NCBI GenBank assembly: GCA_022826005.1
Contig: JAJDVT010000125.1
Location: forward strand, 1 to 45,815
Origin: Gemmatimonadota bacterium
Lineage (GTDB): Bacteria > Gemmatimonadota > Gemmatimonadetes > Longimicrobiales > Gaopeijiaceae
Direction: 5' to 3'
DNA length: 45,815 nucleotides
In this document: in pieces, positions 9,296-20,796 of the stretch
Layout of the letters: each line of letters begins with the position of its first letter
How positions within the stretch are numbered: position 1 is the first letter of the stretch
The notes under the pieces: model-generated
Database searches by the model: none
What the model was told of the DNA's origin: nothing
Seen by the model: only the letters and a program-made list of their open reading frames with translations
Made by a program: the position numbers and the translations under genes

Positions 9296-10219
9296 CTACC
9301 GCGCCATCGCGGACTGGTAGATTTCACGATTCATCTGCAGCTCCAACGCGCGTACGGCGTGGGCCGCGCTCGAAAAGGACGTCCCGCACAACTCCGCCAC
9401 GTGCTCGGAAGTCGGCGAGACGACTGGGTAGTAGACCAGGCTGCCATCGTCGTCGATTTCGGCGACCTTGATGTCGACGGCGGACCCGTCGATCAACGGC
9501 AACTGGCCCTTCCAGAAGAAGGTCCCCGTCGGAGTGGCTAACCGAGGCGCCAACGACGGGAACAACACCCCGAGCACAACTTGGTCGCGTGCCCGGACTG
9601 CCACGGAGACCTTTCCACGCGGTCCGGCGCCGTCCGCGTCATGGTCTCCTCGAGCGTCGATCGAAGCACGATGGTCTTTCGGCCAGATACTCGGGTCGTC
9701 GGTGACCTTCACGTTGGTCGGCGCGATTTCGTGCACCGCGTCGTCTCCGCGAAACAGCACATAGTGCCGGACGGCGTATCGGTCCAGCCCTTTCCGCCCG
9801 TCGTTCCGGTGCGTCACGAGCAATGCGTAGAAGAAGTCCGGGTTGTGAAGTTCGTGGTTGACGATCCTTCGGTAGGTCGCCCTGTCACCGCCGCTCAGCG
9901 TCGGGTAACCGTTCACATGGTGGGTATGCCAATTGCCGAGATGTTCGATCGACGGGTCCGCCGCCTCGATCCGCCTGAATACCTCTGTCTGATGCTCTCC
10001 GTCCTGAAAAAAGCTCGTCCTCGATCGACGAGCGTTTGGACCCGGCTCGATCACGCCCCTGGCCTGGATTACCACGGAGTCCCCGTCCATGGTGAAGTGG
10101 CCTATCACCCGCCCCCCTGTTTCCTCGTGGTCGTAACGGTCGCATTCCTCGAACACGCTCTCCAGCGCCTCGCCGGCGATTTCCACGCGGACCGCCGGGC
10201 GCTTACGCTTTTTCTTCAT
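9296..10219 (-). CDS. JAMM/JAB1 metalloprotease (deubiquitinase-like)
   Basis: A 307-aa protein with start ATG 10219, preceded by GGAGGAGG about 3 nt upstream and overlapping the E1 gene by 17 nt. The JAMM motif is complete: E33 in HEETGG, H98-T-H100, S109 and D112 in YPTLSGGD. The N-terminus is strongly basic (MKKKRKRP). The domain occupies about residues 10-165; the C-terminal 140 residues are of unknown fold with no membrane segment. JAMM enzymes cleave isopeptide bonds or process ubiquitin-like precursors. Encoded directly after an E1 and two E2-like proteins, it would be the deconjugase or the modifier-maturing protease. It is a second JAMM in the operon, distinct from the domain fused to the large E2-E1 protein. 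Confidence 0.87.
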   Translation of the reverse strand: MKKKRKRPAVRVEIAGEALESVFEECDRYDHEETGGRVIGHFTMDGDSVVIQARGVIEPGPNARRSRTSFFQDGEHQTEVFRRIEAADPSIEHLGNWHTHHVNGYPTLSGGDRATYRRIVNHELHNPDFFYALLVTHRNDGRKGLDRYAVRHYVLFRGDDAVHEIAPTNVKVTDDPSIWPKDHRASIDARGDHDADGAGPRGKVSVAVRARDQVVLGVLFPSLAPRLATPTGTFFWKGQLPLIDGSAVDIKVAEIDDDGSLVYYPVVSPTSEHVAELCGTSFSSAAHAVRALELQMNREIYQSAMAR

Positions 10220-11054
10220 GGCCTCCTCCGCAAACCAAGCATCCGTGCTGCGGCGATAGCATCATCCGCTGCACTTGGAAATTCCTCGAAAACGGGTGCA
10301 CAGCTCTGTTGCCCCACACCAAGTAGTTGTCATCGATCGGGGTCATGAATTGCGGTCGAGAAACCGCCGCATCGCCCAGCGCATCCAGGGTGAACCGGGT
10401 GTGGAAAGCAGCTATGAACCCGATGTCGACGGCCAGGCCCGGCGAGTCCTTGATCTCCTCGATCTCCAGGTCGTAGACCTTCTGTCGCTCCTCCTCCGAC
10501 ACGAGATCGATCTCCCGGACGCTGTCCCGGAATTGCGTCCGTTCAAGCACTCCCTCCAGACATGCCAGGCATCCGCACTTCCCCGGTCGATAGGAATACA
10601 CCTCGCCTCCTATTCCCCGGGTGAACACGCGCCCGACGGTGAACGGTGTCTCCGTCTGCACGCAGACCTCATTCAGGCGGTACCGGCTTGGTTCGTTGTC
10701 CGTGCCCACTACCACGACGCTCGCACGCTCGACCTCATCTCCCAGTCCCGGCCAAAGGAGTATGTCCTCGTCGAACATCCTGACTTCCGCCCATGGGTTG
10801 CGGTCCCTTATCACGTCGGCGAGGGCCGCCGACTTCCGCCAGCCCAGGTACCGGAGTCCACAGACATGCCGGATGACGTTCTCGACCTCCAGTTCGCCCT
10901 TGTCCACCAAGATGAAGTTCCGCACGCCGGACATGGCGAGTTGCTGTGCTACCTGCCCACCTCCTGATCCGCACCCAGCGATGAGCACCCAAAGGTCCTC
11001 GAACGCCCGCACGTCGAACAGGCGATCAATCCTCGCGAAGAGTCGATCCCTCAC
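10203..11054 (-). CDS. E1-like ThiF/HesA/MoeB adenylyltransferase
   Basis: A 283-aa product when started at GTG 11054, whose GTGA overlaps the upstream stop; longer frames would run deep into the neighbouring gene. The Rossmann motif GCGSGG is at 27-32 and the acidic nucleotide-binding residue is D51 in ILVDKGELE. A CGCLAC pair and a C-terminal CLVCGG probably form one zinc site, as in MoeB/ThiF proteins. The protein should adenylate the C-terminus of a small modifier and pass it to an E2. The best E2 partners are the two proteins encoded immediately upstream. Overlaps on both sides (4 nt and 17 nt) indicate strict co-translation. Confidence 0.88.
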   Translation of the reverse strand: MRDRLFARIDRLFDVRAFEDLWVLIAGCGSGGGQVAQQLAMSGVRNFILVDKGELEVENVIRHVCGLRYLGWRKSAALADVIRDRNPWAEVRMFDEDILLWPGLGDEVERASVVVVGTDNEPSRYRLNEVCVQTETPFTVGRVFTRGIGGEVYSYRPGKCGCLACLEGVLERTQFRDSVREIDLVSEEERQKVYDLEIEEIKDSPGLAVDIGFIAAFHTRFTLDALGDAAVSRPQFMTPIDDNYLVWGNRAVHPFSRNFQVQRMMLSPQHGCLVCGGGHEEKA

Positions 11055-11581
11055 GACGCACCCTCCGTCTTGGGCCACGTCCCTACTTGGCGCCAGACCG
11101 AATAGTGCTGGATCCACCGCCGGAATAGGGCCACAGTGTGCATTACGTCGTGTTTCCTCGGTTTCCACACCGCCATGGCTCCGTAGATGCACAGCGTCCC
11201 ATTCGGCCACGTGTGCGGGCAACCAGCCTCGATGGGTTTCGCAGCGACCACCGGCGCGTTGTTCGGATAGCCATGCGGCAGCGTCACGATCACCTCGAGG
11301 GCCGTCTCGCCACTGAACTCGTCGAACACGAGTTGAATCTCCCGCTTTTCGCTGATGGAGACGCGGAAGTGCTCATTCGAGTCGACCATCCGGTCCAGCT
11401 CGGCCGTCATGCGGGCCGGTTGGATGTCTGGGAGGAAGCAGGATATCGGTACGAGACAGGCTTTCTGCTGCCCGTTTCGCTCGATTAGAAAGGCTGTGCC
11501 CTGCTCCGAAACCTCGTCCAGAACCTCCCCTGGCCTCCGTCGGAGCGCCATCATGGACAGGGACGTGAACTCGATCTTCAT
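11051..11581 (-). CDS. Phd/YefM antitoxin-like domain fused to an E2-like (UBC-fold) domain
   Basis: A 176-aa protein with start ATG 11581, 4 nt after the preceding stop; a TTG five codons earlier would overlap it. Residues 1-55 match the Phd/YefM antitoxin pattern: ALRRRPGEVLDEVSEQGTA, then FLIERNGQQKACLVPIS. Residues 58-170 are E2-like: a beta-meander with LPHGYPNNAP, H123, candidate catalytic Cys131 in NGTLCIY, then WKPRKHD and a closing helix. The H-x7-C spacing and the Trp-Pro-His block are shared with the separate E2 just upstream, so the two are paralogues. Phd domains bind DNA and dimerise. Here that could recruit the E2 to the operon promoter, or the domain may only provide dimerisation. 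I know no described Phd-E2 fusion. Confidence 0.75.
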   Translation of the reverse strand: MKIEFTSLSMMALRRRPGEVLDEVSEQGTAFLIERNGQQKACLVPISCFLPDIQPARMTAELDRMVDSNEHFRVSISEKREIQLVFDEFSGETALEVIVTLPHGYPNNAPVVAAKPIEAGCPHTWPNGTLCIYGAMAVWKPRKHDVMHTVALFRRWIQHYSVWRQVGTWPKTEGAS

Positions 11582-11585
11582 GGCC

Positions 11586-11960
11586 CTAGTGCGCAATCCC
11601 AGCCCCGGGCCACCGCCCGGTCTGTTGGTACACCTCGTACTTGGCCAGCCACTTCGCTGCTCGCTGGATCACGAAGGTCAAGTCATGCCGGCCCGGGTTC
11701 CACATGCGCGGATGCAGGTAACAGATCCGGTTGTTCGAATACCGGTGCGGGGATGAAGCCAGAAGAGGCTTCCTGACATGCACTTGCGGCATCTCGTACG
11801 GGTAGGACTCAGGAAAGCTCACAGCGAGCGTGTAGATCCGTCGGCTTGTCTCCAACGCGATCAGCGCCATTACACCGCCCTCGACCGTGGGGTGGCCCTC
11901 CACGTAGTCGAAGTACTCCTGAGCCGCCCCGATCTCTTCGCGAATCCTGGCTAGATTCAT
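11586..11960 (-). CDS. E2-like ubiquitin-conjugating-fold protein
   Basis: A 124-aa single-domain protein with ATG overlapping the upstream TGA (ATGA). It shows the core of a compact prokaryotic E2: a beta-meander ending in FPESYPYEMPQV, then H72, candidate thioester Cys80 in NRICYLHP, the MWNPGRHD block and a C-terminal amphipathic helix with KWLAKYEVYQQTGRWPG. There is no signal peptide or membrane segment. It should accept an activated modifier from the E1 encoded two genes downstream. It is similar in layout to the E2 half of the next gene. Confidence 0.8.
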   Translation of the reverse strand: MNLARIREEIGAAQEYFDYVEGHPTVEGGVMALIALETSRRIYTLAVSFPESYPYEMPQVHVRKPLLASSPHRYSNNRICYLHPRMWNPGRHDLTFVIQRAAKWLAKYEVYQQTGRWPGAGIAH

Positions 11961-12775: not shown

Positions 12776-12799
12776 CGGCCACGCAAAATTGCACAGAAG

Positions 12800-12822
12800 T
12801 GGCCGTCCAAAAAGTCACACTT
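12800..12822 (+). repeat. IS21 left terminal inverted repeat
   Basis: This 23-bp block matches the reverse complement of 17465-17487 at 19 of 23 positions, with both arms ending in GTCACACTT on their own strand. Confidence 0.65.
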
Positions 12823-12925
12823 GGCGGGTGTGACGGAGCGATGGCCGCGTCATGGGTGCCGGGTGCGGGTGAGGGTTTCCGGCGCGTTGGATACGATGGC
12901 GTCTCCACTGAACGGAGGAGACGCG

Positions 12926-13960
12926 ATGATCGGGAGAGAGACGCGGGTGCTTCTGCGGCACTATCTGGAACAGGGGATGAGCAAGGCCGCGATCGCGCGG
13001 CAGGTTGGGGTGAGCCGGCGGACGGTGTACCGCTGGATCGAGTCGGGCCAGCTGGACCGGGAGCTGGATGACGAGGCAGTGAGGTACGGGCCGAGGCGGC
13101 CGCGGCCCTCGAAGCTGGATCCGTACAAGGGGATCGTCCGGGCGCGTCTGGCCGAGTATCCGGAGCTGAGCGCCGTGCGCCTGTTCCAGGAGGTCCGGGC
13201 AGCGGGCTACCCGGGCGGCTACGGCCAGGTCAAGCGGTATGTACGCGAGGTTCGGCCCCGGCCTGCCGAGGAGCCGGTGCAGCGCTTTGAGACCCCGCCG
13301 GGGCACCAGGGGCAGGTGGACTTCGCGGAGTTCCGGCTGCCCTGGGGCAAGCGGCACGCGCTGATCGTGGTTCTGGGCTACTCACGCTACATGTGGCTGC
13401 AGTACTACGAGCGGCAGACGATGGCGGTGGTGATGCGGGGGCTGGAGGCGGCGTTCGGGTACTTCGGGGGCGTGCCCTCGGAGCTTCTGTTCGACCAGAT
13501 GAAGGCTGTGATCGTCGAGGATGGCCGCCTGAGCGGCGGACGCCTGATCGAGAACCCGGAGTTCCTGCGCTTCAGCTTCCACTGGGGCTTCCGGATCCGA
13601 GCGTGCCGACCGTACCGGGCCCAGACCAAGGGCAAGGTCGAGCGGCCGGTCAGCTATATCCGCAGCAACTTCTTCTACGCCCGCACCTTCGCGTCGGACG
13701 ACGACCTGAACACGCGGACCCTGGGCTGGCTCGACACAGTCGCCAACGTCCGGATCCACGGGACCCTGAAAGAGAAGCCGACGGACCGGTTCCAGGCCGA
13801 GCGACCGCATCTGATCCCGCTGGCCCGTTGGCCCTACCGTCCGGTGGTCCCCCGGTCCGAGGGACAGGGCCGGACGGCTGGAGCGACGGTCGTTCCGCAG
13901 GTCGAGGTCGAGCGCCGGCCGCTGGCGGCGTACGCCCGGATCGCCGGAGAAGTCTCGTGA
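12926..13960 (+). CDS. istA: IS21 transposase IstA
   Basis: A 344-aa protein starting at ATG 12926 after GGAGGAG. It has an N-terminal helix-turn-helix (SKAAIARQVGVSRRTVYRWI, residues 19-38) for binding the element ends and an rve/DDE core: D132 in GQVDFAEF, D190 in LLFDQMKAV and E239 in KGKVERPV. The length is somewhat short for the family (usually 350-500 aa). All catalytic residues are present, so the enzyme looks active. Its TGA overlaps the istB start (GTGA), the standard translational coupling of IS21 elements. Confidence 0.9.
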   Translation: MIGRETRVLLRHYLEQGMSKAAIARQVGVSRRTVYRWIESGQLDRELDDEAVRYGPRRPRPSKLDPYKGIVRARLAEYPELSAVRLFQEVRAAGYPGGYGQVKRYVREVRPRPAEEPVQRFETPPGHQGQVDFAEFRLPWGKRHALIVVLGYSRYMWLQYYERQTMAVVMRGLEAAFGYFGGVPSELLFDQMKAVIVEDGRLSGGRLIENPEFLRFSFHWGFRIRACRPYRAQTKGKVERPVSYIRSNFFYARTFASDDDLNTRTLGWLDTVANVRIHGTLKEKPTDRFQAERPHLIPLARWPYRPVVPRSEGQGRTAGATVVPQVEVERRPLAAYARIAGEVS

Positions 13961-14295
13961 GGGCGCCGTCGCGCAGGGAACGGATCGCGGCCCAGCTCGC
14001 CGACCTCAAGATGCCGGGCGCGCTGGAAGCGCTGGACGAGGTGCTCGCCGGCGTCGAGGGCGGCGGGACGACCGCCGCGGAAGCGATCGAGCGACTGCTG
14101 GCCGCGCAGATCGCGCTGCGCAACAGCCGCCGCCTTGCCGCAGCCATGCGATCGAGCCGGCTGCCCTGCGTCCGGACCCTGGACAACTTCGACTTCAGCT
14201 TCCAGCCTACGGTCAAGCGGGAGCAGATCGACGCGCTGCACGAGCTCGGCTTCCTCGAACGCCGGGAGAACGTGGTGTTCCTCGGCCCGCCCGGG
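13957..14295 (+). pseudogene. istB: istB, 5' part (interrupted at the P-loop)
   Basis: It starts at GTG 13957 inside the istA stop and encodes the first 113 residues of the IS21 helper ATPase, up to VVFLGPPG. The reading frame is cut in the middle of the Walker A motif. The rest of the gene is at 16921-17397 in the same frame. Joined at the 11-bp repeat, the two parts read GPPGVGKTHLA, an intact P-loop. As it stands no functional IstB is made, so the IS21 should be silent for efficient transposition unless the insert is excised. Confidence 0.88.
14285..14295 (+). repeat. Left junction repeat (att core) of the serine-recombinase insertion
   Basis: GCCCGCCCGGG, identical to 16910-16920. It is the only sequence shared by the two junctions and lies in the istB P-loop codons. 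Confidence 0.8.
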
Positions 14296-14319
14296 TCAGT
14301 GACATACTGCACCACCTTT

Positions 14320-16419
14320 CTATGTGATTGCGGTGTCGATAGTTAGCTGATCCGGATCCAGAGTTTGCGGAGCTTTTCTGCGGGTGTGGACGCGCCGGAC
14401 GTACTCTTGGACGGCAGGCTCGGCCAGATCTGCGGCCCGGATGGTCCAAGGGGCGTACGGTACGACCTGCCGGCCCAGGAGGACACCGCTCCGCAAGAGC
14501 CTGCCGACGACGGGTGGGCTGACATCGAGGGACGCGGCTGCCTCCTGCAGGGTGAGCAACCCCTCCCGTTTGGAGGTCGCAGGGTCATGGACCGGGATGC
14601 CGTGATAGTGGCGCAAGCTGATGACCCGCCCCGCCGTCCAGTTGTTGTTTCGGCCCGTCCTGAGGCCCAGGCGGTTCAGGATGCGGGCGATCTGTCCGTC
14701 CGGGAGTATGGTTGCGAGTTCCCTTACGATGTCCACGACCTTGCGGTCCGTCGTGTAGCGGTGCTGTCCTTTGCGCTGCTTCCGGACCGAGAGTTGAGCG
14801 TGCTGCCCGCCAGCCCAGCGAACGATCATGTGGATGCGGGCCGCTTCGTCGTCCACATCGACCAGGATCTCTTCGATGAGGGTACGTACGATGCGCTTCT
14901 TGAGCCGCATGTCCGACCCCGGATCATGCCACACGCCGGGCAGATCCTCCGCCAGCTGCAGGAGCGCCGCCCGGTCGATCCTCTTGTCCTTCTGGCGCTC
15001 GCCAGCCTGGAGGGCCACCCACTCCCGTTCGACTTCGGCCACCACCTCCAGAGCCTGGTTCCACCGGCGCTCGAGTTCGGCGGCCACAAGGCGGTTCTCC
15101 GGCTCCGCGGCATCATATTGCCGGCGCGCCCGTTCCGCCTCGTAGCGCGCCTGCTCCAGCTTCAGCGCGAGCACCTCACGGTCCCGCTTCCGATCTTCCC
15201 TGGCGTGCTCCGCGGCTCTGATCGCGGCCTCCAGAGCGCCGGGTTGGATGACCGCGAGAACGGCTTCCTCCACAGCCCGGTCCGCAGCGAGGCCGCCGAA
15301 CGAGATGCAGGAGACCGCCCCGTGATTGATTGCCGCGCCACGGCAGTTGTAGCGGACAACCCGCCCTTTGGTGCCGCTGTAGGTGACATGCGGCCGTCGT
15401 CCGCAGCGCCGGCACCGCAGCAGTCCCGCAAGGAGCGAACGGCCTCGCCGGGGAGCGCCCCGGCGCATCCGTCCCTTCATGTGCACGTTCTCCGCGATCC
15501 GCTTCTGGTTCTCCTGATACCGCTCCCATCCGATGTAGCCCTCGTGATGCCCGGGGATCAGGACGGCCCATTCGTCCTGGGCAACGGGGATCCCGCGTCG
15601 CCTTCTCGGCCGGCCGTTCACGATCGCGGTCTCCGTGCGGGTCTTCCCGAACGCGTAGGCGCCCGCATAGACGGGATTGGTAAGGATGTTGTGCACCGAG
15701 TTGTAGACCGGGAGCTTCCAGACCACTCCGCGCCCGAACGGCCCGTACTGGACCGCAGGCAGCTCCACTCCTTCCTGGCGGAACCAGAGGAGAACCTGCC
15801 GGATGCTCCCCAACTCCTCGAACTTCTCGAACACGAGCCCGATGCTCGTCCGGATCCGCCGGTCCGGGTCCAGCTCGCACCGGTCGTCCCGGGTCCTCAG
15901 GAACCCGATGGGGAGGAGGGTGTGGAGCTCTCCGCGCTCCGCCTTCTCGCGCAGGGCCACCAGAGACCGCTGACGCATGACCCCCAGCTCCCACTCGCTC
16001 ATCGTGCCCTTGAGGCCCAGTAGCAGCCGGTCGTTGAAGTGGTGGGGATCGTAGACCCCTTCGGCGTCGATGATGAGCGTCGAGGTCAGTCCGCACAGGT
16101 CGACCAGGTGGTGCCAGTCCCTGTTGTTGCGGGCCAGCCGCGAGGCCTCGAGGGCGAACACCGCACCCACGTCCTCCTGGCAGACCGCGGACACCAGCCG
16201 CTGGAACCCGGGGCGCTCGACCCGCCCTGATCCGGATCGCCCCAGGTCCTCGTCCACCACCTCCACCCGGCTCCAGCCCAGGGAGCGGGCCCGGTCCGCC
16301 AGCTCGTACTGCCGGCGCCGACTCTCCACGTTGTCCTGGACCTGGCCGAGCGTCGACTGGCGGATATAGACGTAAGCGGTTCGCTGCAAGTGCTGTGGTG
16401 TGATCTTGGCCGGGTTCAC
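14320..16419 (-). CDS. Large serine recombinase
   Basis: A 699-aa protein with start GTG 16419, chosen because GGAGAGGG precedes it and the resolvase domain begins shortly after. The catalytic domain has R20 and S22 in YIRQST and the EASRLARN helix region. A Recombinase domain follows, then a zinc-ribbon (RCRRCGRR and YNCRG...SC), a coiled-coil stretch at about 400-470, and a C-terminal helix-turn-helix (LTLQEAAASLDVSPPVV). The layout fits transposon-type large serine recombinases, which integrate without target duplication except for a short shared core. Its stop is 24 nt from the left core. No disruption is visible, so it looks active. Confidence 0.9.
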   Translation of the reverse strand: MNPAKITPQHLQRTAYVYIRQSTLGQVQDNVESRRRQYELADRARSLGWSRVEVVDEDLGRSGSGRVERPGFQRLVSAVCQEDVGAVFALEASRLARNNRDWHHLVDLCGLTSTLIIDAEGVYDPHHFNDRLLLGLKGTMSEWELGVMRQRSLVALREKAERGELHTLLPIGFLRTRDDRCELDPDRRIRTSIGLVFEKFEELGSIRQVLLWFRQEGVELPAVQYGPFGRGVVWKLPVYNSVHNILTNPVYAGAYAFGKTRTETAIVNGRPRRRRGIPVAQDEWAVLIPGHHEGYIGWERYQENQKRIAENVHMKGRMRRGAPRRGRSLLAGLLRCRRCGRRPHVTYSGTKGRVVRYNCRGAAINHGAVSCISFGGLAADRAVEEAVLAVIQPGALEAAIRAAEHAREDRKRDREVLALKLEQARYEAERARRQYDAAEPENRLVAAELERRWNQALEVVAEVEREWVALQAGERQKDKRIDRAALLQLAEDLPGVWHDPGSDMRLKKRIVRTLIEEILVDVDDEAARIHMIVRWAGGQHAQLSVRKQRKGQHRYTTDRKVVDIVRELATILPDGQIARILNRLGLRTGRNNNWTAGRVISLRHYHGIPVHDPATSKREGLLTLQEAAASLDVSPPVVGRLLRSGVLLGRQVVPYAPWTIRAADLAEPAVQEYVRRVHTRRKAPQTLDPDQLTIDTAIT

Positions 16420-16579
16420 GAGGCCGTTCCCTCTCCGGTCTCCTCTGAAGCCTCCCGGCGCAGCAGATGCCCGCGCAGCAACTCGATCCAGAGTTCCAGC
16501 ACGCTCGCCCGAACTTCCGGGGAAAGCGTATCCCAATGCGTGCTGCCGAAGCCCAGGGGCAGAAGCGGCTGTCGAACCT

Positions 16580-16819
16580 TCATCGCGAGCCTCCGGATGC
16601 CGGGGAAGCGGAGTCATTGTGGCCGGCCGAAGGCTCACCGCTATCCGTGTGGGCGTCAAGGAGGCGCCTGAGGGCTCGCAGTGCGGCAACAGACACTGTG
16701 GGTGGCGACGACACCAGTTGCGCCCCACTGCCCGCATCTGTCTTCGTCATCCACTCCGGGATCTCTGTCCTGGTGCCGTCGGGAAGGACGACGACAAAGC
16801 TGCTCTCGCCGCCCCGCAC
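16580..16819 (-). CDS. Small accessory protein of the serine-recombinase element (Y4bD/Y4pK- or DUF5372-like)
   Basis: It encodes VVVLPDGTRTEIPEWMT followed by a Leu/Arg-rich helix and a disordered tail. The frame is open upstream and continues with IRYPWHPLHGRELEV, which matches the beginning of small proteins commonly found next to such recombinases. No canonical start exists in that extension, so the annotated GTG at 16819 may be too late and the true start may be non-canonical near 16885. Its role in these elements is not known to me. Confidence 0.5.
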   Translation of the reverse strand: MRGGESSFVVVLPDGTRTEIPEWMTKTDAGSGAQLVSSPPTVSVAALRALRRLLDAHTDSGEPSAGHNDSASPASGGSR

Positions 16820-16909
16820 GTGGCGCCCGCAGACCTCCAGCTCACGGCCGTGCAGCGGGTGCCACGGATAACGGATGACAACACTGGATTTGTGAGCACT
16901 ACGTCGCGT

Positions 16910-16920
16910 GCCCGCCCGGG
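16910..16920 (+). repeat. Right junction repeat (att core) of the serine-recombinase insertion
   Basis: GCCCGCCCGGG, identical to 14285-14295. It is followed directly by GTCGGCAAGACGCACCTG, which encodes the second half of the istB P-loop. Confidence 0.8.
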
Positions 16921-17397
16921 GTCGGCAAGACGCACCTGGCCATCAGCCTGGCCATCACCGCCGCCGAGAGCGGCCGCAAGATCTACTTCGGAACCCTGAC
17001 CGACCTGGTCGAGTCCCTGGAGGAGGCCAAGGCCGCCGGCCGGCTCAACCGCAGGCTCAACACCCTGACCCACCCCGCGCTGCTCGTGGTCGACGAGATC
17101 GGCTACCTGCCGGTCACCCAGAGCGGCGCGATCCTCTTCTTCCAGCTCGTCAACCGGCGCTACGGCCGCGCCTCGACCGTCCTGACCTCCAACAAGGGCT
17201 TCGAGGAGTGGGGCCGCATCCTCGGCGACGAGGTCATGGCCGCCGCGCTCCTGGACCGGCTCCTCCACCGCTGCCACATCGTCAACATCCGCGGCAACAG
17301 CTACCGGATGCGGCGCCACGCCGAGCTCTCAAAGGCCATCCACCCCCTGGGATCCCGAATAAACCCCGATGCCCCAGCCCCGGAAGCCGGTTCATGA
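16921..17397 (+). pseudogene. istB: istB, 3' part
   Basis: It continues the IstB frame with VGKTHLAISLAI, Walker B LLVVDEIGYLPV, the sensor region TVLTSNKGFEEWG, and the closing LLHRCHIVNIRGNSYRMR typical of IstB. With the 113 residues upstream the joined protein would be 271 aa, normal for the family. No stop codon or frameshift interrupts this part, so inactivation is due only to the insertion and may be recent or reversible. Confidence 0.88.
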
Positions 17398-17464
17398 GGG
17401 CCCGTCAAACCCCAGGCAACCGCCCCGCTTCGGTCGCTCCGCTCCCTCCGCGGAGCGGTTCTCG

Positions 17465-17487
17465 AAGTGTGACATTTTCAATGGCCA
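17465..17487 (+). repeat. IS21 right terminal inverted repeat
   Basis: It pairs with 12800-12822 (19 of 23 bp). A second copy of its AAGTGTGACATTTTC core follows at 17489-17503. Confidence 0.65.
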
Positions 17488-17502
17488 GAAGTGTGACATT
17501 TT

Positions 17503-17532
17503 CGGTGTTATGTGGCATGCAACATAACACCG
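17503..17532. repeat. Perfect 11-bp-arm palindrome at the left edge of the RIT element
   Basis: CGGTGTTATGT and its exact reverse complement flank an 8-nt spacer (GGCATGCA). It abuts the left RIT inverted repeat and is absent outside the right one, so it may be target sequence or part of a recombinase core site. Confidence 0.7.
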
Positions 17533-17625: not shown

Positions 17626-18621
17626 TCAGAGCGCAGCCAGGAAGGCGATCAGTCCCGTGTTTGCCCTCCAAGGGCGATGCGGACCGGGCTCGGCCGCGTC
17701 GCAGAGCGCCATGGCCTTGGCCTTCATCTCGATGTCGATTTCGGCGTAGATGTTGGTGGTATCGAGGCTGGCATGACCGAGCCAGGCGCGGATCGTGTTC
17801 AGATCGACTCCGGCTTGGAGGAGGTGGCAGGCGCTGGTGTGACGGATCGTGTGAGGTGTGATCTTCCTTCCGGTGAGCGGCGGTACGCGAGCTGCCGAGC
17901 GCTCGACGAGCCGATAGACCCCGAACCGTGTATAGGGGTTTCGCCGCTGGCTGAGGAAGACGGCATCGTCGGGTGTGCGTCGCTGCATGAGCTCGGCGAG
18001 GGCGGCCTCGGTCTGGGGCCACAGCGGACACTGCCGGTGTTTTCCTCCCTTGCCGACGATGTTGACGAGCGCGTGCCCGCCATCTCGTCGTCCGATGTGC
18101 AGATCACCCACCACGAGTTGAGTCGCTTCGGAGACGCGTGCCCCGGTGTTGTAGAGGAAGAGGAGCAGGGCGTATTCGACCCGGCCTCTCGGCGTTCGGC
18201 GGTCCGGGGCCTCGAGCAGTTCCTTCATCTCGGACTTGCTGATCCAGCCGATCGGCTTCGGCGCTGCCTTCTTCGAGGCAATCGCACGGATGCTGCCGCT
18301 CCACTCGATATGGGTCGGATCACGGCTGGCGATGAAGCGTGCGAAGGCGCGGATCGCCGACAGCCGCTGGTTGCGGGTCGAGACGGAGCAGCCGCGGTCA
18401 TCCTCGAGATGTTCGAGGAACTGGCGCACGCGGCGTGCCGGGAGATCCTGCACGGCGATCCGTTCGACCGGCTTGCGGGCCTTGGCACCGACGAACGGCA
18501 GCAGGAGTGCGAACGTATCGCGGTAGCTCTTCTGCGTGTTGCGGGCGAGGTTGCGCTCGGTGACGATGTAGTCGGTCAGGAAGCGGCGGAGCCAGGGACC
18601 GAGGGTGCGTGGATTACTCAT
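17626..18621 (-). CDS. ritC: RIT tyrosine recombinase, third gene
   Basis: A 331-aa XerC/D-type recombinase with an N-terminal SAM-like arm-binding domain (LRRFLTDYIVTERNLARNTQ) and a C-terminal catalytic domain: Arg in NTGARVSE, Lys in VGKGGKHR, the HTIRHTSA box, LGHASLDTTNIY with the nucleophile Tyr. The tail after the Tyr is longer than in XerC. It overlaps the previous gene by 8 nt. The three RIT recombinases are thought to act together, but their division of labour is not settled. Confidence 0.88.
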   Translation of the reverse strand: MSNPRTLGPWLRRFLTDYIVTERNLARNTQKSYRDTFALLLPFVGAKARKPVERIAVQDLPARRVRQFLEHLEDDRGCSVSTRNQRLSAIRAFARFIASRDPTHIEWSGSIRAIASKKAAPKPIGWISKSEMKELLEAPDRRTPRGRVEYALLLFLYNTGARVSEATQLVVGDLHIGRRDGGHALVNIVGKGGKHRQCPLWPQTEAALAELMQRRTPDDAVFLSQRRNPYTRFGVYRLVERSAARVPPLTGRKITPHTIRHTSACHLLQAGVDLNTIRAWLGHASLDTTNIYAEIDIEMKAKAMALCDAAEPGPHRPWRANTGLIAFLAAL

Positions 18622-19567
18622 GGTGGTCTCCTCCGTTGACGTATGCGTTGAAGCGGAGCGAAGCCTGCTGCAGCAGTTCAGGCGTCATCGACAGATAGAT
18701 CCGGGTGCCATCGAGATCGGTGTGGCCGAGCCAGATCGATAGCGTCGGCAGCAGTCGTTGGACATCGGCGCCCTGCCGGTACCAGGACTCCAGCCGATGT
18801 ACGGCTGCGGCATGGCGCAGGGAGTGAAGGCACGGAGCTCGCCGTCCGTCGTTGGGGGAGCCGATTCCGGCGTCCGTGAGCAGCTTGACGAACGCGTGCG
18901 CGGCGCTGCGGTGTACCAAGGGCGTGCCGTCGCGGTTGGCGAGGAAGGTTGAGGCCGTGCCCTCGGGCAAAGGGCGTTGGGCGCGTTTGGCGGCATAGGC
19001 CTTCAGCGCGTCGGCGAGTTGCCGGCAGACGGGGACGAGGCGGGTCTTGTAGAACTTGGTGTGGCGGATGGTCAGGAGTGCATCGGGCAGGTCGACATCG
19101 TCGAGGGTCAGGCGCTGGGCCTCGCCGAATCGCAGGCCCGCGCCGTAGAGAAGGAGGAGCAGCGCCCGCAGAGTATCGGCGTCGATCTGGATCGAACGTT
19201 GCCGACTGACATCGATGGCGTCGAACAGGAGTTGCAACTCGTTACGGGAGTACACGTAAGGTGGTGACGACCGGGGTCGGGTCGGCTCATCATTGCGTGC
19301 CGGAAGCGGGGAGCAGATTACGTAGCCGCGACTGATCGCGTAGCGGTAGAAGCCGTCCAGGACGCTGTACTTGCTGGCCCGGTACCGGGTGAGGGGACGT
19401 GTACCGGCAAGGAAGTCGAGAACGTCGGCTTGGGAGACGGCATCGCACGCGGCGGTCCCGCCGACATGCTTCAGGAACCGGTGCAACAGGTATGCGCCGG
19501 CGTGGAACTTGGCACCATGAGCCTGACGCCAGTCGATATAGTCGTGGACCGCGTCGCGGAGCATCAT
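18614..19567 (-). CDS. ritB: RIT tyrosine recombinase, second gene
   Basis: A 317-aa tyrosine recombinase. Catalytic elements visible are Arg in GAGLRFGEAQ, Lys in HTKFYKTR, the HSLRHAAA box and LGHTDLDGTRIY with the nucleophile Tyr. Its start overlaps the stop of ritA as ATGA, and its stop overlaps ritC, so the trio is translationally coupled. The N-terminal domain (HDYIDWRQAHGAKF) differs from the other two, as expected for distinct DNA-arm recognition. Confidence 0.88.
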   Translation of the reverse strand: MMLRDAVHDYIDWRQAHGAKFHAGAYLLHRFLKHVGGTAACDAVSQADVLDFLAGTRPLTRYRASKYSVLDGFYRYAISRGYVICSPLPARNDEPTRPRSSPPYVYSRNELQLLFDAIDVSRQRSIQIDADTLRALLLLLYGAGLRFGEAQRLTLDDVDLPDALLTIRHTKFYKTRLVPVCRQLADALKAYAAKRAQRPLPEGTASTFLANRDGTPLVHRSAAHAFVKLLTDAGIGSPNDGRRAPCLHSLRHAAAVHRLESWYRQGADVQRLLPTLSIWLGHTDLDGTRIYLSMTPELLQQASLRFNAYVNGGDHHE

Positions 19568-20796
19568 GCCAGGCCCTCCAGGTCGATGTCGGCGACCTCG
19601 CGGAGGGTGCTGATCTGCACCTTGGCGTATACCGCGGTCGACGAGGTGCAGCGGTGGCCGAGGTAATCGCCGACCTCCTTGAACGACAGGCCGTGGTCGA
19701 GCAGGTGCTGGGCGGCGGCATGACGAAGCGCATGTGCACCGCGACGCTTGCCGGTGATGCCGAGCCGGTCGAGGCGTCTCCTAACAACCCTCGAAACTGC
19801 CTGCCGGCTCACCGGACGGATCGGGGCGATGAGCGTGAGGAACAGCGCCCTCTCCGGGCGCGGGGGGCGAGCCTCGGTGAGGTAACGCACGACCGCCTGT
19901 CCCACACCGCGGGAGAGCGGGTAGTGCTGCGTGCATCCCGGCTTGGGGCGCCGCACCCGCAGAGTCTCGTTGGCCCAGTCCAGATCATCGAGCCGCAGGC
20001 CAGCCACCTCGCCGGCACGCAAGCCATAGGCGATCAGCACCATCAGGATGGCACGGTCGCGAAGGTCAGCCGGCCGGTTGCCCTCGGAGGTCGCGAGCAG
20101 GCGTAGCACTTCGTCCCGGTTGAGCCCCTTCGGGAGCGTCTCACCCGGATGGAACCGCACAGGCATGATCCCGTCAGCCAGCCCCTGGGAACACCAGCCC
20201 CGCCGTTCGGCGAACCGGAAAAAAGTGCGTAGACGGTGCCCGTAGATGCGGATCGTGCTCCGACTGCAGCCGCGGGCGTGCCAGCTCACGACAGCCCGGT
20301 CGATATCGGCGACTACGACCGCATCCAAGGCAATGTCCCACTCGCCGAGCCAGTCCAAGAAGTGGTCGACCGTATTGCAGCAATTGCGGATCGTCGACTC
20401 GGACCATCCGCGCTCGTTGCGCATCCACTCCCTGAAGGCGGCGACTTCGGCGACCTGAGCGCGCCGTGGCCGTACCCTACAGGGCTCATCAAGCAGACCC
20501 GCGAAGCGTAGCCATCGCACCGCGCGGCTGACGAAGTTCCGACGCGCCGTCGGTTGCGCCGGACGACTCGATCGACGGTTGGCCGCCGCCTCGATCCGGG
20601 GCAGACTGACGCGCTCGCCTTCCCGCAAGTCCAGACGATGAATCAGGGCGATCTGAGCCGCCGCGACCGTTCGTAATGTGAGCGGCCGTGCGCCCTCCCG
20701 CGCGCAGTGCCTCAGGTAGCTCAGCCGTTCTTCCAGCAACGGTGCGCGCCGATAGCGGGCTATCGTGTCGCGGTCGATGAACAGGGCTTCAAACAT
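19564..20796 (-). CDS. ritA: RIT tyrosine recombinase, first gene
   Basis: A 410-aa recombinase preceded by AAGGAGG and starting at ATG 20796. It has an extra N-terminal region of about 120 residues before the SAM-like domain (REWMRNERGWSESTIRNCC), then the catalytic domain: Arg in YGLRAGEVAG, HALRHAAA and LGHRCTSSTAVY with the nucleophile Tyr. Its length and first position match RitA. The 54 nt between its start and the right inverted repeat should contain the trio's promoter. Confidence 0.88.
   Translation of the reverse strand: MFEALFIDRDTIARYRRAPLLEERLSYLRHCAREGARPLTLRTVAAAQIALIHRLDLREGERVSLPRIEAAANRRSSRPAQPTARRNFVSRAVRWLRFAGLLDEPCRVRPRRAQVAEVAAFREWMRNERGWSESTIRNCCNTVDHFLDWLGEWDIALDAVVVADIDRAVVSWHARGCSRSTIRIYGHRLRTFFRFAERRGWCSQGLADGIMPVRFHPGETLPKGLNRDEVLRLLATSEGNRPADLRDRAILMVLIAYGLRAGEVAGLRLDDLDWANETLRVRRPKPGCTQHYPLSRGVGQAVVRYLTEARPPRPERALFLTLIAPIRPVSRQAVSRVVRRRLDRLGITGKRRGAHALRHAAAQHLLDHGLSFKEVGDYLGHRCTSSTAVYAKVQISTLREVADIDLEGLA

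Follow-up and report, generated by a model that had tools for sequence, protein, structure and literature searches.

Integrative elements usually have their att sites in tRNA genes or single-copy host genes. The element described here shares several traits with the large serine recombinase (LSR) integrative elements and phages of the Bxb1 and phiC31 type, namely Resolvase, Recombinase, and zinc-ribbon domains, a 2-bp core, and an attB in a conserved gene. It differs from them in that it is only ~2.6 kb long and has three genes, in that its target is a codon motif common to diverged IstB proteins and to another ATPase, and in that the whole DUF5372-LSR family to which it belongs is aimed mainly at mobile-element genes. 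It is also useful to contrast it with the multi-targeting LSR transposases (TndX/TnpX, Cp36; the DUF4368 clade), which likewise include LSRs that move to several sites per genome. The LSR studied here has no Pfam match to DUF4368 at E ≤ 1, and its sites have in common both a Walker A coding motif and the reading frame. According to the accessible parts of Durrant et al. 2022 (PMC10083194), many LSRs have the same conserved gene as their target (for instance, a Mg-chelatase/ATP-dependent protease), and a multi-targeting clade is marked by DUF4368; no mention of insertion sequences (ISs) as LSR targets was found in those parts.

Two further systems offer parallels. RmInt1 is a group II intron with a natural target inside Sinorhizobium insertion sequences (ISRm2011-2; PMC5894124). 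It, too, is a mobile element that naturally targets an IS, but it moves by RNA-based retrohoming with an unrelated enzyme and has one IS family as its main host. Inteins and homing endonucleases found in P-loops insert in conserved codons of catalytic motifs, among them Walker A, and are thereby assured of a conserved target (PMC5050341). Insertion at such codons is what they have in common with the present element; inteins, however, splice out of the protein, whereas this insert breaks the gene and gives no sign of splicing. A literature search that did not reach most subscription journals and preprints turned up no account of DUF5372 and none of LSR elements within istB; this absence is weak evidence of novelty.

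The window, that is, the whole 45,815-nucleotide stretch of DNA that was analyzed, comes from a Gemmatimonadota bacterium (contig JAJDVT010000125.1). We consider it highly probable that it carries a three-gene LSR element that uses Walker A coding sequence as its attB and may hitchhike on IS21. Catalysis of attP × attB recombination by the LSR, a circular intermediate, excision with a directionality factor, and transport by IS21 are inferred, there being no biochemical or expression data.

The insert and its junctions

The host of the insert is an IS21 element, recognizable by an istA/istB overlap at 13957–13960 and by multiple terminal repeats near 12800 and 17480 (Table 1). The short target duplication that is an IS21 trait was seen, with a length of 6 bp, in Bradyrhizobium copies and was not determined for the window copy. 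The istB gene is split by an insert of ~2,625 bp core to core (~2.63 kb), which runs from the third Walker A codon (14290–14292) to its counterpart at 16915–16917. The sequence GCCCGCCCGGG occurs exactly twice in the window, and these two copies bracket the insert. Joining the flanks at GCCCGCCCGGG produces a single open istB frame, with FLGPPGVGKTHLAISL / FLGPPGVGKTHLA, that reads GPPGVGKTHLA. A preliminary description of this DNA had reported the repeat at both junctions and the in-frame join, and our flank joining bears it out on both counts. It had also proposed that excision would restore istB. The open joined frame and the existence of empty sites are in keeping with that proposal, but excision itself was not seen. 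Uninterrupted istB homologues are present in same-genus genomes, and the best of these (L114, 87%) spans the junction in an ungapped 803-bp alignment.

Table 1. Coordinates of the IS21 element, the insert, and their features within the window
Feature	Position	Strand	Remarks
IS21 left terminal repeat region (TGCACAGAAGTGGCCGTCCAAAAAGTCACACTT)	12795–12825	+	18/22 match to inverted right end
istA, IS21-family transposase	12926–13960	+	ORF, ATG at 12926; IstA-type ORFs of related loci match
istB, N-terminal part, to crossover in Walker A codons GGC-CCG-CC/	13957–14291	+	
attL junction repeat GCCCGCCCGGG	14285–14295	+	Inferred 2-bp core CC at 14290–14291
Large serine recombinase, 699 aa from GTG start	14320–16419	−	Pfam Resolvase, Recombinase, Zn_ribbon_recom, weak HTH_17
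Small ORF, 55 aa (MKVRQPLLPLGFG...)	16416–16583	−	Overlaps recombinase start
DUF5372-family gene	16580–16885	−	Start codon uncertain; Pfam PF17342, E = 1e-5
attR junction repeat GCCCGCCCGGG	16910–16920	+	Core counterpart at 16915–16916
istB, C-terminal part, from /C-GGG-GTC-GGC-AAG (PGVGKTHLA...) to stop	16917–17397	+	
IS21 right terminal repeats (AGTGTGACATTTTC, twice)	17462–17508	+	

The insert contains a DUF5372-family gene, a 55-aa ORF, and the LSR gene, all on the minus strand. They are tightly packed, with overlaps at 16580–16583 and 16416–16419, and the recombinase stop lies ~25–30 bp inside attL. In the LSR, an N-terminal catalytic domain (PF00239, Resolvase, E = 1.4e-19, residues 16–165) is followed by PF07508 (Recombinase, 4.2e-17) and then by PF13408 (Zn_ribbon_recom, 1.3e-7). 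The DUF5372 gene keeps its position in relatives from many subfamilies, and its Y-HP-G and WM residues are invariant among homologues in ~40 loci. Its AlphaFold model, of moderate confidence (pLDDT 80), consists of a small three-stranded sheet and a C-terminal helix and has no significant fold match in the PDB. The small ORF has a counterpart of similar size and place in most subfamilies examined. Both this protein and the DUF5372 protein are candidates only for a directionality factor, a role that is inferred.

A phage origin of the insert was considered and rejected. No relative was found among IMG/VR viral contigs at the sensitivity of the query used, and phage records gave only distant partial matches (~42% coverage at ~25% identity), none of which, among the matches listed, covered 80% of the query.

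The surroundings of the IS21 element merit brief description. Directly at its right end lie three adjacent tyrosine recombinases (17626–20796, minus strand), a RIT-like trio with apparent inverted end sequences. On the other side is a ThiF/E1-like gene (10203–11960, minus strand; Pfam ThiF, 6e-25), whose two neighbors look E2-like, one with a weak UQ_con match and one with a Phd/YefM-like N terminus. These genes possibly form a bacterial ubiquitin-like conjugation operon.

The target site and the crossover core

The host genome (4.85 Mb in 143 contigs) holds a second copy of the element, 85% identical, in the P-loop of another istB; it spans two overlapping contigs, and joining the frame once more gives GPPGVGKTHLAISL. 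Searching GTDB species genomes with the recombinase alone gave 48 loci, and a plasmid search gave 521 records, mainly from rhizobia. Few Gemmatimonadota genomes contain the group (9 of 395 at E ≤ 1e-150). Where the recombinases are 60–92% identical, and in some cases near 50%, the split gene is IstB or another Walker A gene, with its N-terminal part adjoining the 3′ end of the recombinase gene and its C-terminal part at the opposite end. Several annotated plasmid copies likewise have the recombinase ending against an istB fragment that adjoins istA.

The true overlap spans so few bases that, for most loci, the longest exact repeat did not locate the att sites, which were placed instead by the contiguity of both flanks against intact proteins. 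Wherever this comparison was possible, the two flanks matched a single intact protein, and their coordinates ran on without a break at the P-loop. All 22 readable sites of this P-loop group, which ranges from Gemmatimonadota to rhizobia with recombinases down to ~50% identity, lie in the third Walker A codon and in one orientation. One of the 22 (L004), whose recombinase is 87% identical, is inserted not in istB but in a P-loop encoded by a Sigma54_activat-domain gene (E = 2e-17).

The preliminary description had suggested an element specialized on IS21 or on P-loop sequences. As a check it proposed a search of other genomes for the same recombinase in istB at the matching position or in further P-loop genes; it held that the idea would be refuted by close relatives sitting in unrelated sequences without a common core. 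Both kinds of site were found, and no such relatives occurred within the P-loop group. The P-loop wording is the better of the two, as the sigma-54-type ATPase shows that istB is not the only target. Sequence comparison thus identifies the target as the P-loop (Walker A) codons, mostly but not only those of istB, and it is the position of L004 that points to Walker A coding sequence as the recognized feature. The bias toward IstB could reflect flanking attB bases, abundance, or the lethality of other targets. Separately, a distant relative on a Mesorhizobium huakuii plasmid (L104) has its insertion near AMTLAAIDRLVHH, within the C-terminal part of an istB; this gives the gene family a second site.

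The crossover can be placed closely within the Walker A codons. When the 22 attL/attR pairs are aligned on these codons, the two ends agree at base 6 in 19, at base 7 in 21, and at base 9 in all 22; the bases of highest agreement belong to the third codon and the first position of the next Gly codon. The best-resolved site is that of Bradyrhizobium sp. 26S5. When its flanks are joined, they are identical to an uninterrupted istB that the strain carries on a different plasmid (100% over 1014 bp) and that is also present in seven further plasmids. Compared with this empty site, attL follows the target through base 7 and attR follows it from base 6 onward, an overlap of exactly 2 bp, CC. For this relative, integration was exact, with a 2-bp core and no target bases lost. 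A 2-bp overlap is what is expected of a serine recombinase.

The 11-bp repeat that the preliminary description took as the junction mark is real, but it is longer than the true core. As the recombination core it was rejected: the window copy, in which attL and attR overlap by 11 bp, does not resolve the core length, and the overlap is 7 bp in the second copy of the same genome and mostly shorter elsewhere. Given the exact 2-bp overlap in 26S5, the repeat is best read from these alignments as the core plus chance and attP/attB similarity. The core dinucleotide varies, being CC in most loci and also AC, TC, or AG, and attL and attR disagree at base 6 in three loci (L003, L077, L086) and at base 7 in one (L006). 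Tolerance of mismatch or later mutation must therefore be assumed.

Independent insertion and probable movement with IS21

Repeated insertion at the same codon can be followed in closely related elements. On P. sabiae plasmids the element occurs three times (L076, L077, L086), with recombinases 99% identical and istB N-terminal parts only 26–33% identical. In Gemmatimonas UKL202c, two identical recombinases (L007, L008) lie in istB genes 33% identical. Such insertions at one codon of diverged genes are otherwise hard to explain, and they argue for recognition of the conserved codons. At the level of sequence comparison, the P-loop pattern among relatives is targeting rather than chance.

These pairs also bear on whether one ancient insertion in istB could have been inherited vertically with IS21. 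Such a history would account for an IstB P-loop target common to Gemmatimonadota and rhizobia, whose LSRs are ~50% identical. It is hardly tenable, however, when near-identical LSRs occupy istB genes of 26–33% identity, when a strain with the element also has empty copies that match the flanks at 100%, when one close relative is in a sigma-54 gene, and when LSR and istB trees do not match in the pairs tested. We also give very little credence to a serine transposase of low specificity whose survivors persist only in dispensable, multicopy transposon genes, so that selection alone creates the P-loop pattern. Multi-targeting LSRs do exist (PMC10083194), IS genes are dispensable, and the majority of targets are IS genes. 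But dispensability cannot fix one codon and one orientation across diverged istB genes, and the single-codon pattern already largely refutes this idea; in addition, DUF4368, which is linked to the multi-targeting clade, was not found in the window LSR.

A subtler question is whether the association with IS21 has any function. Plasmid p26S5b carries a complete insert-bearing IS21 (5.28 kb, 99.9% identical) at three places, each with its own 6-bp duplication (GCGCGG, GCCCGG, and CTGGCC). The simplest reading of these sequences is that the occupied IS21 was copied, with IstB supplied by the intact copies of the strain. Three separate LSR insertions into identical IS21 copies are not excluded. The hitchhiking put forward in the preliminary description thus gains support from the distinct duplications without being settled by them, and movement of the element with its host IS is likely but unproven. 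It remains possible, although we think it unlikely, that P-loop targeting is real while the link to IS21 reflects abundance only, with no hitchhiking and no gain from IS21 movement. The insertion of L004 in a P-loop gene outside any IS is consistent with this, as is the presence in strain 26S5 of empty identical IS21 copies into which three separate insertions could have occurred. The distinct target duplications of complete, insert-bearing copies speak against it, and the location of other subfamilies in mobile-element genes as well suggests that there is an advantage in riding.

The wider DUF5372-LSR family

More distant recombinases keep the DUF5372 gene and a generally similar small ORF, but sit in other targets. 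In Acidobacteriota and relatives the target is the HxxR box of tyrosine recombinases (Phage_integrase), in Verrucomicrobiota it is IS66 TnpB, and on rhizobial plasmids it is IS66 TnpC or the transposases of IS3 and IS1380. The KVE/KVER motif of IstA is the target in three loci (L099, L105, L064). In a genome of the same genus as the window (G001), one 3357-bp LSR element is present in two DDE genes in copies 99.97% identical, one in an IS481/IS3-type transposase (L059) and one in IstA (L064), in each case at the codons that precede the final catalytic Glu. Another element splits a group II intron reverse transcriptase at RVT_1 profile positions 77/79, DCDIRGF/FDN (L131, in G122). Further targets are IS91-type and IS4-type transposases and ArdC-like genes.

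Targets were resolved in 35 of the 48 recombinase-only loci: 29 are transposition or recombination genes, 5 are ArdC-like, and 1 is the sigma-54 ATPase. The other 13 loci, mostly on truncated contigs, have no identifiable target. Known transposon genes are easier to recognize, so the share of mobile genes among the targets is inflated, and some assignments (e.g., L020, L022, L024, L042, and L019) are motif readings of short fragments rather than strong Pfam matches. The targets are specific to subfamilies, in that they track the LSR phylogeny with several switches (15 label changes vs. 32.6 when shuffled); some deep branches are long.

Two side observations concern individual groups. The intron in L131 is a third kind of mobile element, struck at a conserved palm motif. 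Five loci (L020, L042, L043, L045, and L046) form an Acidobacteria-centered subgroup, seemingly in ArdC-like antirestriction genes (ArdcN) near SFGNILQIARQ/KPDATRVAGF.

The overall pattern fits a family of LSR elements that parasitize mobile-element genes. We think it probable that DUF5372-LSR elements are a widespread guild of hyperparasites whose attB repeatedly evolved to conserved, often catalytic codons of mobility genes, and which inactivate and ride mobile elements. On this reading, the attB specificities would cover the Walker A motif of IstB; the third DDE acidic motif of IstA and of an IS481/IS3-type transposase; IS66 TnpB and TnpC; IS4, IS1380, and IS91; the HxxR box of tyrosine recombinases; and the group II intron reverse transcriptase.

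The mechanism that we propose would operate as follows. A compact integrative element with genes for a DUF5372 protein, a small protein, and an LSR would use as attB the coding sequence of the Walker A motif (P-loop; G-x-[x]-G-x-G-K-T/S). The LSR would recombine attP with the P-loop codons in one orientation, with a 2-bp core located in the third codon, and would split istB without loss or duplication of host sequence. Catalytic codons that are conserved in multicopy, dispensable IS genes would give the element a widespread target whose loss is harmless to the cell. An occupied IS21 could then be moved in trans by intact copies, and the element would hitchhike with it. Sister subfamilies may have been re-targeted to conserved, often catalytic, motifs in the genes of other mobile elements.

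These elements have their att sites in catalytic codons that are conserved in other mobile elements. By inserting there, the parasite knocks out its carrier and gains a landing place that is multicopy, mobile, and harmless. This provides a natural check on IS21, IS66, and other transposons. The family also supplies a large set of LSRs with readable, switchable specificities, which is useful for studying how LSRs choose attB. At the DNA level, it parallels inteins and the group II introns that home to ISs.
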